In this document: piece after piece, positions 14,909 through 19,023 of the stretch | Layout: each line of letters starts with the position of its first letter | How positions within the stretch are numbered: the stretch's first letter is position 1 | NCBI GenBank assembly: GCA_011321815.1 | Contig: DROS01000078.1 | Location: forward strand, 1-64,000 | Reading direction: 5' to 3' | Length of the DNA stretch: 64,000 nt | From: Gammaproteobacteria bacterium | GTDB taxonomy: Bacteria > Pseudomonadota > Gammaproteobacteria > SZUA-152 | Position numbers and translations under genes: made by a program | The notes under the pieces: generated by a model | The model's database searches: none | What the model was told of the DNA's origin: nothing | The model's input: only the letters and a program-made list of their open reading frames with translations

Positions 14909-15895
14909 TCACAAATGCAGGCGTCGTAGTTCGGGCTCCGGCTGACTGCGTTCCCACATTTCATTAAAGGTTTTGAGTAGCATGCGTGCTTCTGCCGGGT
15001 TGTTGAATTCTGCCAGGCCTTCAAAGCGGTCATTGTGGGCGCGGCGAATAATACCCACGTCGTCGACGATCATAAAGGTATCCACATGGTTCCGGTCTTC
15101 TTCATCGGCGCGGTGAATAAAAATATGGCTGCTGATACGTCGCGCCAGTTCTACAATGCGATGGCCATGGGCAACAGCTTCGGAAGGGTCCAGTATCAGG
15201 ATATTGACTCTGGAACGGGAGTTGTGGATGGCCAGTTTTTTGACGGCTTCGATGAAGTCTTCATTGTCGAAGACCCGGGGGGCGAGATTGGGCGTGAACA
15301 GATTCAATGACCGTTGCCCTTGTGCAACCATGTGTATGGCAGCCTGTTTGTTATCTTCCAGCCCTTTGAGGTCTATATAGCCACGGGTTTCACCCAAAAT
15401 CTGTTTGGGTAAATCCTTGATATTGATGTGCTCATCCAGTGACGGCAGATTGCGTGTCATGTGCTGATGAGGGATGTTGGCATCCATGAAGACTTCGCCT
15501 TGCGGCACAAAATCGTGGCGCAGGTAAAAATCCACAGCCTGTGTTTGTGCATCGAGTTTTACACGGGGCAGTTGCCGTGCACGGGCAATGGTGATCAAGG
15601 CAGTGAGCATTTTGCTGCCCACGCCATGTCGGCGCCAGGCACGTAACACTGCCATGCGCCCGATGTGTCCGTCGCTGGTCATACGAGCGGTGCCGATACT
15701 GCGCCCCTTTTCATCACGGGCCAGCACATGTATGGCATTTTCGTCTTCGCCATCCCATTCCAGCTCGGGGGGGACATTTTGCTCTTTGATAAACACAAAC
15801 TCGCGCAGGATGCGCAATTCGGCCTCGGCATTTTGCCAGGTGACGCGCTGGATTTTAAAATCTTTATTGGCTGTGGGTTCAGATGAAGTAGACAT
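14909..15895 (-). CDS. GNAT N-acetyltransferase fused to a DUF7931-like domain
   Basis: 328 residues. Residues ~10-155 form a GNAT domain with IGRMAVLRAWRRHGVGSKML (the acetyl-CoA loop R/Q-x-x-G-x-G/A) and the FYLRHDF strand near its end, similar to the ElaA/YjdJ group. Residues ~165-328 form a second domain (SLNLFTPNLAPRVFDN..., VNILILDPSEAVAHGHR, DTFMIVDDVGIIRR) of the type listed as DUF7931. It looks like a PLD-type fold without catalytic residues; that part is inference. I choose the ATG at 15895, which overlaps the end of roxA by 17 bp. The acceptor substrate is unknown. Tight coupling to roxA hints at a ribosome- or protein-modification theme, but this is weak. Confidence 0.8.
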   Translation of the reverse strand: MSTSSEPTANKDFKIQRVTWQNAEAELRILREFVFIKEQNVPPELEWDGEDENAIHVLARDEKGRSIGTARMTSDGHIGRMAVLRAWRRHGVGSKMLTALITIARARQLPRVKLDAQTQAVDFYLRHDFVPQGEVFMDANIPHQHMTRNLPSLDEHINIKDLPKQILGETRGYIDLKGLEDNKQAAIHMVAQGQRSLNLFTPNLAPRVFDNEDFIEAVKKLAIHNSRSRVNILILDPSEAVAHGHRIVELARRISSHIFIHRADEEDRNHVDTFMIVDDVGIIRRAHNDRFEGLAEFNNPAEARMLLKTFNEMWERSQPEPELRRLHL

Positions 15896-17045
15896 AGGCT
15901 TGGTTGTACAACGTTGTGAGCAATTTTGCAAAACCGGGTTGAGCTAATGCTTTTTGCAGTTGCGCATACGACCATTGGTGTTCATCGCAAAGCAGGGGGG
16001 CAGCGAAGGCCAACTCTGCGGGCAAGGGGTAATGTTGGCCGTCGATGAACAATGCGTTGTTGTTTGTATTGTTGTTTGCGATGAAGGCGAATCGCGTTTG
16101 TTCGTTGCGGTATAGCCTGCCTTTTTCTGCAAAGGTCTGCAAAAACCGCTGTTCATCAAGTGTTTCGGTTTCTTCCGCTGCGTGCTCGTTTTTTGCCTCG
16201 GTGATAAATTCGCCAAACCATTGGTCAATGCTGGCATCGTCGGACAGTATTTTTTGCAGAATGCCCCGTACCTGGGCAAGGGCATCGTGGGATATTTCAC
16301 CCGGGTGTTGTTGCCGTTGCAGCGTTGGATCGGCATAGCGTTGTGTGGCATCAAACCGTGAAGCAACATGCTCTGCAAAATGGCTTAACAACTCGGCATA
16401 ACCGGGGGCGCGAAAACCGACAGAGAGGGTGATGCAGTCTTCCAATGCAACGCCGTGATGGGCAACACCCGGTGGCAGATAAAGCATGTCACCAGGGTGC
16501 AATACCCACTCTTCTGTGGCAGTGAACTCACGCATGATGCACAAATCAATGTCGGGAAGAAAATTATCGTCAGAGACAGGGTCGGTACTGATTTGCCAAC
16601 GGCGGGTACCGTGGGCCTGGATCAGAAAGACATCGTACTGATCCGTGTGTGGGCCCACCGAGCCTTGTGCCGGGGCGTAACTGGCCATGATGTCGTCGAT
16701 GCGCCAATGAGGGATGAAACTGAACCGGTCGCGTAATTCGGCCAGTTCGGGTACGTAACGGTTGCATTCCTGTACCAGCAATGTCCAGTGGGTGTCCGGC
16801 AATTGTGCGAAGCGGTTTTCGGCAATGGGGCCGTATTCCACTGTCCACGGTGCAGGGCCTGCTTGTTCCAGCACCAGTCTGGATTCCACTTCGGGTTCAC
16901 AGCAGAGGCCGGCCAGTTCTTCGGGGGATACAGGAGAGGTAAAGCCGGGTAATGCACCACGAATCAACAGGGGGCGTTTTTGCCAGTATTCGGCAAGAAA
17001 TGTTTCGGGGCAACGGTTTCCCAATAGTGTTAAAGGTTTGTTCAT
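15879..17045 (-). CDS. roxA: Ribosomal protein uL16 arginine 3-hydroxylase RoxA (YcfD)
   Basis: 388 residues, JmjC/cupin 2-oxoglutarate oxygenase. The Fe(II) triad is visible: HTD (His133, Asp135) and His196 in PPGVAHHG. The N-terminal 'FLAEYWQKRPLLIRGALPGF' and 'PPGVAHHGVALEDCITLSVGFRAP' are characteristic of YcfD; E. coli YcfD has 373 residues. The C-terminal winged-helix part is present. It hydroxylates an arginine of ribosomal protein L16 in a 2-oxoglutarate- and O2-dependent way. The next gene overlaps its 3' end. It lies downstream of the small-RNA-rich gap that separates it from purB. Confidence 0.9.
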   Translation of the reverse strand: MNKPLTLLGNRCPETFLAEYWQKRPLLIRGALPGFTSPVSPEELAGLCCEPEVESRLVLEQAGPAPWTVEYGPIAENRFAQLPDTHWTLLVQECNRYVPELAELRDRFSFIPHWRIDDIMASYAPAQGSVGPHTDQYDVFLIQAHGTRRWQISTDPVSDDNFLPDIDLCIMREFTATEEWVLHPGDMLYLPPGVAHHGVALEDCITLSVGFRAPGYAELLSHFAEHVASRFDATQRYADPTLQRQQHPGEISHDALAQVRGILQKILSDDASIDQWFGEFITEAKNEHAAEETETLDEQRFLQTFAEKGRLYRNEQTRFAFIANNNTNNNALFIDGQHYPLPAELAFAAPLLCDEHQWSYAQLQKALAQPGFAKLLTTLYNQAYVYFI

Positions 17046-17157
17046 GGTGATAGTGTACGCGAAGCCACGGTGAAACCAATATCCCGCCTAAGCGCGCCTG
17101 CCTTTGGCGCGCTCGGCATCTGCTCTGAAGGCGCGGATTCAGGTATAAAATGAAAGC

Positions 17158-17191
17158 AAAAAAAGGGGTCGCGCCATAAACTGCGCGACCC
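17158..17191 (-). terminator. Rho-independent terminator (ends candidate sRNA 2)
   Basis: On the minus strand, GGGTCGCGC pairs with GCGCGACCC (plus-strand arms 17166-17174 and 17183-17191) around an 8-nt loop, followed by seven T residues (complement of 17158-17164). This is a textbook intrinsic terminator. Confidence 0.85.
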
Positions 17192-17255
17192 TAAAAAGAG
17201 GAGAATACGACGGCATACTGCATGGGAGGGAGGAATAACTGCCGTCGCGCCCTTC
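17158..17255 (-). ncRNA. Candidate small RNA 2 with C-rich loop
   Basis: Predicted ~98-nt transcript. The 5' hairpin has an 8-bp stem (plus-strand arms CGACGGCA 17208-17215 and TGCCGTCG 17240-17247). Its 24-nt loop reads, on the minus strand, CCTCCCTCCC, a sequence able to pair with Shine-Dalgarno sites. A second pyrimidine-rich single strand (TTCTCCTCTTTTT) follows, then the intrinsic terminator. It has the same three-part layout as candidate sRNA 1. Upstream lies a perfect TGTGA-N6-TCACA site centred 41.5 bp before the proposed start, and CATACT as the -10. No conserved ORF competes for this stretch. The RNA has not been shown to exist. Confidence 0.55.
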
Positions 17256-17262
17256 AACATTA

Positions 17263-17304
17263 AGTATGCAAATATCGAGGGATATTTCTGTGAACGGCGT
17301 CACA
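17263..17304 (-). promoter_or_regulatory. CRP/Vfr-type site and -10 box for candidate sRNA 2
   Basis: TGTGA-ACGGCG-TCACA at 17289-17304 matches the CRP consensus perfectly and sits inside a longer 8-bp-arm palindrome (17286-17307). The minus-strand -10 is CATACT (17268 down to 17263). With a start at 17255, the site is centred at -41.5, the class II activator position. Confidence 0.5.
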
Positions 17305-17373
17305 GAACGGCAGGGTGAATAAATGTGTATCTCGATGTCGTTAAATTAAGAAGATAGTGCATGAACGCAAGAT

Positions 17374-17397
17374 AAAAAAAAGGGCGCTTGCGCGCCC
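17374..17397 (-). terminator. Rho-independent terminator (ends candidate sRNA 1)
   Basis: GGGCGC (17382-17387) pairs with GCGCCC (17392-17397) around TTGC. On the minus strand this is followed by eight T residues (complement of 17374-17381). Confidence 0.85.
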
Positions 17398-17460
17398 CTT
17401 AAAGGGAGAGTAATCATGCGGTACAACCCAAGGGGGGAGGAGAGAGGGTTGTGTCGCACA
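17374..17460 (-). ncRNA. Candidate small RNA 1 with C-rich loop
   Basis: Predicted ~87-nt transcript. A 5' hairpin with a 7-bp stem (plus-strand ACAACCC 17423-17429 and GGGTTGT 17446-17452) exposes a 16-nt loop reading, on the minus strand, TCTCTCCTCCCCCCTT. A pyrimidine-rich linker (ACTCTCCCTTTAAGG) leads into the intrinsic terminator. Loop, linker and terminator match candidate sRNA 2 in order and character. A consensus sigma-54 promoter ends 12 bp before the proposed start. A 73-codon minus-strand frame crosses the region but looks non-coding. C-rich-loop sRNAs of other proteobacteria pair with ribosome binding sites; that role here is inference. Confidence 0.6.
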
Positions 17461-17470
17461 TGTATTTATT

Positions 17471-17486
17471 AGCAATGTGTGTGCCA
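17471..17486 (-). promoter_or_regulatory. Sigma-54 (RpoN) promoter of candidate sRNA 1
   Basis: On the minus strand the sequence is TGGCAC-N5-TTGCT (plus-strand 17486 down to 17471). The -24 GG and -12 GC are separated by exactly 10 bp, as RpoN requires. The predicted start is about 17460, directly before the first hairpin of the candidate RNA. An enhancer-binding-protein site would be expected at higher coordinates; I could not identify one. Confidence 0.6.
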
Positions 17487-17530
17487 TGTGTGTGGATTGC
17501 TGCGGAATGGGGCGCTTGCGCGGTGTCGGC

Positions 17531-17564
17531 AAAAAAAATGTGCAATTGTTATACAGTTGCACAT
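17531..17564 (-). terminator. purB terminator
   Basis: ATGTGCAA (17538-17545) and TTGCACAT (17557-17564) form an 8-bp stem around an 11-nt loop. On the minus strand the stem is followed by a T-tract (complement of 17531-17538). It lies ~77 bp after the purB stop codon and is the first of three minus-strand terminators before roxA. Confidence 0.8.
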
Positions 17565-17640
17565 TGCTTTACGGCGGAGGGTGACGATTTTTCGTTATTT
17601 CAGCGTCTGGATTTTGTCGGAACAGGCATCAAGGGGGGTG

Positions 17641-19023
<1,383 letters not shown>

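Follow-up and report, generated by a model that had tools for sequence, protein, structure and literature searches.

The minus strand of the 64,000-nucleotide stretch of DNA analysed here (the window) contains, between positions 17255 and 17304, what we consider with a probability of about 0.78 to be a promoter of the CRP class II type that drives a free-standing small RNA, sRNA 2 (98 nt, 17158..17255, minus strand). The best reading of the locus is that this RNA and its sister sRNA 1 (17371..17462, minus strand) form a pair of tandem sibling anti-Shine-Dalgarno sRNAs, the former probably activated by CRP from a class II position and the latter presumably dependent on sigma-54.

The CRP/Vfr-type operator upstream of sRNA 2, TGTGACGCCGTTCACA (17289..17304, minus strand), was assigned on the basis of an exact match and of its conservation. 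The palindrome reads TGTGAACGGCGTCACA on the plus strand (17289-17304) and TGTGA-N6-TCACA on the minus strand (17304-17289), and together with its flanks it forms 8-bp arms, TTCTGTGA-N6-TCACAGAA (minus strand). The operator centre, at 17296.5, is located 41.5 bp upstream of base 17255 on the minus strand, and the exact match thus confirmed the original prediction of a perfect palindrome centred at -41.5 from this base. Since shuffled versions of the window yield a mean of 2.37 matches with at most one mismatch, the match alone, the only such one in the 64-kb window, is unremarkable; a lone match in 64 kb proves nothing, and conservation was therefore taken as the test. Over the whole genome, 8 perfect CRP sites were found, mostly in intergenic DNA, versus 1 for the reversed-pattern control. 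The number of sites with at most one mismatch in either of the two registers found in related genomes (20 or 21 bp from the -10 box) that is expected from composition is 5.8e-5 per promoter.

The -10 box CATACT (17263..17268, minus strand) lies 20 bp from the proximal half-site of the operator and is not accompanied by a -35 hexamer; a scan for a two-hexamer sigma-70 promoter at sRNA 2 found none. Promoters of the class II CRP type also lack a -35 hexamer. Because CATACT occupies 17268-17263, we infer that sRNA 2 starts at 17255 on the minus strand, to within 1-2 bp, based on the distance from the -10 box and on a conserved GAAGG that forms the beginning of the RNA alignment. Given this putative start, the operator centre falls, as expected of class II sites, near -41.5 and some 29 bp away from the -10 box, the distance to the first base of this box being 28.5 bp in the genus of the window (g1) and 29.5 bp in two other genera (g2 and g6).

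A BLAST search with the purB-roxA intergenic region matched nine same-genus genomes, namely G000 and eight relatives; a tenth, G008, came from the RNA model. The operator is kept in all 10 g1 genomes that carry sRNA 2, perfectly in eight of them and with one mismatch in G007 and G008, and all 10 promoters have a CATA(C/A)T -10 box at an invariant spacing of 20 bp, without exception. The DNA upstream of roxA in the other genera was searched as well; the site turned up without mismatch in G016 (g6) and with one mismatch in G012 (g2), in both cases 21 bp from a CATACT or GATACT box. The intergenic DNA of G008, G012 and G016 shows no BLAST match to that of the window, yet the CRP site is present. 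In the g1 alignment, 2 of the 100 cells in the operator arms deviate from the majority, versus 101 of 380 in the spacer and flanks (Fisher p about 1e-9, a descriptive value as the sequences are related), and sliding the mask gave no better register, with one neighbouring register tying. The constant spacing in the same genus and in these two further genera bears out the proposed class II activating distance.

In six g3 genomes and in G015 (g5), sRNA 2 is present and the CRP site is absent, and the link between CRP and sRNA 2 is therefore not universal. In a RoxA tree, g3 and g5 form a group (91/92) that is separate from g1; g2 and g6 fall outside and are poorly placed. A single loss of the CRP site in the line leading to g3 and g5 is the simplest history, independent gain being the alternative, and such an apparent loss in one lineage, with the RNA retained, amounts to a natural rewiring experiment. 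Upstream of sRNA 2 in g3 (loci L132 and L134-L138), a conserved TTCAG(T/C)TTGAACCCGGATAAT-like promoter replaces the CRP site, and in some g3 genomes this upstream promoter contains the inverted repeat GTTCA-GTT-TGAAC. The region downstream of purB in 80 gammaproteobacterial loci of other groups contained no CRP site and few sigma-54-like matches.

The RNA itself comprises a 5' hairpin with loop UUCCUCCCUCCCAUGCAG, a single-stranded stretch UAUUCUCCUCUUUUU, and an intrinsic terminator, GGGTCGCGC...GCGCGACCC followed by a T-run (17158..17191, minus strand). Its fold has a z-score of -3.9, and among the nine g1 sequences aligned, both partners have changed in seven base pairs. Neither this pair count nor the covariation score was equalled by any of 500 shuffles, and structures slid along the alignment collapsed. 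The sRNA 2 model found homologues in 16 of the 24 genomes of the order, and inspection by eye together with folding added homologues in G012, G015 and G016. When the whole window was compared with Rfam, tRNA was the sole match above threshold, and matches at the sRNA locus were weak and under the gathering threshold. A search of 369 genomes of the class with model R1 gave, outside the family, weak matches resembling ordinary terminators or unrelated hairpins; as this search produced no convincing outside member, the module is known from this family alone.

The sister RNA, sRNA 1, is built from a hairpin with loop CUCUCUCCUCCCCCCUU, a single-stranded stretch ACUCUCCCUUUA and its own terminator (stem 17400-17379), and it folds with a z-score of -6.3. 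Its model, R2, matched in 18 of the 24 genomes of the order and also picked up sRNA 2 in the genome of the window (E 2.2e-4), indicating that the two RNAs are related in plan and in sequence, and bearing out the proposal that they are sisters. Upstream of sRNA 1 a sigma-54 -24/-12 element, TGGCACACACATTGC (17472..17486, minus strand), can be read from the sequence; it is of the type TGGCAC-N5-TTGC (17486-17472) and is kept in six genera. The genome also encodes RpoN. Further upstream lies a conserved block around CCGACAAAATCCAGACGCTGAAATAACGAAAAATCGTCAC (17500..17620, minus strand), which is found genus-wide and partly in g3, does not resemble an NtrC or CbrB site, and may be an enhancer for a sigma-54 activator. 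Scans for NtrC/CbrB sites upstream of sRNA 1 found none that was conserved, and the best sites from a loose scan for TGCACC-N5-GGTGCA, which a diverged or distant site could escape, did not exceed those in shuffled sequences and were not conserved. The genome does encode NtrC, among a total of seven NtrC-like matches that cover the full length or nearly all of it. The original prediction that sigma-54 stands for a nitrogen signal was not supported, since NtrC is one of seven and the site scans showed nothing conserved, and "nitrogen" is therefore a guess.

A CRP homologue, whose presence the original prediction depended on, was looked for and found: the protein L003 scores 357.7 bits against the CRP equivalog model NF008732 (cut-off 266), and its best structure matches are to Vfr, with E about 1e-92. 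The gene adjoins a reading frame resembling trpC, as in Pseudomonas. Of the 24 genomes of the order, 17 have a CRP orthologue above the cut-off, these 17 coming from g1, g2, g3, g4 and g6, and the genome of the window contains three matches to class III adenylate cyclase. Two other Crp/Fnr proteins, L001 and L002, are also encoded, and it is conceivable, albeit unlikely, that one of them binds the operator, in which case the signal would not be cAMP. As we read them, their recognition helices, SREMVSRIL and AREVVSRLL, fit the R-E-x-x-x-R pattern that reads a GTGA half-site, so that they could bind a TGTGA-type site. However, only L003 passes the CRP equivalog cut-off (129 and 39 bits for the other two, versus 266), TGTGA-N6-TCACA is the CRP consensus, and the genera that carry the site (g1, g2 and g6) have a CRP orthologue above the cut-off.

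The proposed control of the sister sRNAs by different systems, CRP/Vfr and sigma-54, is thus borne out by the conserved elements and by the presence of CRP and RpoN in the genome. Because the CRP site, its spacing, sRNA 2, the CRP and RpoN proteins and the six-genus -24/-12 element all hold, the predicted regulatory split between a CRP site for sRNA 2 and a sigma-54 promoter for sRNA 1 is well supported, and two distinct signals probably elicit RNAs of the same kind.

The gene next to sRNA 2 is roxA/ycfD (15879..17045, minus strand), coding for a JmjC ribosomal oxygenase (Pfam JmjC_2 and ROXA-like_wH), and the upstream neighbour is purB (17641..19008, minus strand), coding for adenylosuccinate lyase (Pfam Lyase_1 and ASL_C). 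As sRNA 2 lies on the same strand as roxA, about 110 nt upstream of its start codon in the window, the CRP promoter might serve roxA, and the hairpins would then be an attenuator-bearing leader instead of independent sRNAs. We consider this improbable. A conserved promoter-like box of its own, TACACT, is found shortly before the roxA start codon; TACACT or TAAACT stands directly before this codon in both g1 and g3, as GCGTACACTA in most g1 genomes and as GCGTAAACT or GCGTAGACT in g3, which disfavours sRNA 2 as a mere roxA leader. Moreover, sRNA 2 and roxA are still together in g3 although the CRP site is absent there, and sRNA 1, with the same architecture, precedes sRNA 2 rather than a gene. 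Between sRNA 2 and roxA, at 17066-17149, there is a dispersed repeat of about 80 bp that contains GGATTCAGGTATAA, has at least five other copies in the genome and many in g3, and resembles a small mobile element of the MITE type.

A repressing CRP, or a decoy site beside a promoter that is driven otherwise, appears equally improbable. There is precedent in Spot 42, an sRNA whose promoter is repressed by CRP according to the relevant part of PMC4098024, but here the class II distance is constant within 1 bp over three genera, a -35 hexamer is absent, and the register of the -10 box does not vary. That a chance palindrome stands beside a chance terminator hairpin would agree with the finding that one match with at most one mismatch per window is not rare, but this reading has a negligible probability and was refuted by the comparative data, which comprise 12 genomes from three genera with fixed spacing as well as covariation in the RNA.

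According to the preferred reading, a CRP class II promoter for a free-standing sRNA 2, the cAMP-bound CRP/Vfr orthologue would sit at about -41.5, substitute for the missing -35 contact and recruit sigma-70 polymerase to CATACT, and the transcript would stop at its own terminator, ahead of roxA. The C-rich loop and single-stranded linker of sRNA 2 would then pair with the Shine-Dalgarno regions of mRNAs and repress their translation. Following the same plan of a 5' hairpin with a C-rich loop, a linker and a terminator, sRNA 1 would be made by sigma-54 polymerase together with an activator, so that cAMP and a signal coupled to sigma-54 may both feed overlapping mRNA targets. Binding by CRP rather than by a paralogue, activation rather than repression, and the pairing and overlap of targets are the steps that we infer from sequence in this scheme.

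The two RNAs had been proposed to have the same binding loop. The sRNA 1 loop CUCUCUCCUCCCCCCUU and the sRNA 2 loop UUCCUCCCUCCCAUGCAG differ in detail and are thus not identical, but what did hold is that both contain the C-rich motif CCUCCC, which is complementary to Shine-Dalgarno sequences. Overlap of targets is plausible because this anti-Shine-Dalgarno motif is common to both sRNAs. A search for a 9-base complement of the loop followed by ATG gave 10 places, versus 15 for the reversed control, with no recurring gene. The idea that both sRNAs act on one target set consequently found no backing, since the target search was without signal and the loops share the C-rich motif only; "one target set" is a guess. 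We put the chances of target pairing by sRNA 2 at about even. A wider scenario is that the anti-Shine-Dalgarno sRNAs arose by duplication and were divided, throughout the family, between control by cAMP-CRP and by sigma-54, that they converge on shared mRNAs, and that g3 and g5 later lost the CRP input but kept the RNA; this is tentative and in our estimate falls a little short of an even chance.

Several known systems resemble parts of this arrangement. NmsRA and NmsRB of Neisseria are likewise tandem, similar sRNAs with a UC-rich loop, a UC-rich single strand and complementarity to Shine-Dalgarno sequences, and sRNA 1 and sRNA 2 correspond to these tandem siblings in plan only; the pertinent sections of PMC5362039 report promoters of the sigma-70 type that are linked to the stringent response, describe no CRP or sigma-54 site, and give TCA cycle mRNAs as proven targets, whereas no target was found here. 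In the part of PMC4098024 devoted to them, the enterobacterial CyaR is a free-standing sRNA activated by cAMP-CRP, but it is single, without a sigma-54-dependent tandem sister, and GlmY/GlmZ are a homologous pair with sigma-54 and/or sigma-70 promoters depending on the species, although GlmY is a decoy and no driving CRP class II site is described there; neither CyaR nor GlmY/GlmZ gave an Rfam match here. GlnZ also links carbon and nitrogen metabolism, but it is processed from the glnA 3'UTR under NtrC and has no CRP-driven sister (PMC9731577). In the limited open-access literature covered, we found no report of a tandem sRNA pair split between CRP and sigma-54, and none of a purB-linked C-rich sRNA. 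Sibling sRNAs are common, and why bacteria retain near-duplicates is debated. A pair with conserved promoters of two global systems offers a clean test of whether siblings persist by coupling different signals to one target set; if this holds, two signals, one of them for carbon/energy, would converge post-transcriptionally on shared mRNAs.

The layout of the pair varies between genomes. G008 (loci L133/L168) has kept sRNA 2 and the CRP site, with no sRNA 1 found beside them, and in G004 (locus L012) the two sRNAs are about 700 bp apart. The two are separated in G013 by an element whose inverted ends read CCTGAATCCGTAGGTTCA...TGAACCTACGGATTCAGG. Finally, G012 (L178:797-869) contains a third sigma-54-linked unit with a C-rich, sRNA-like hairpin, which lies upstream of the pair and is flanked by a TGGCACATCGAATGC element and by a terminator.
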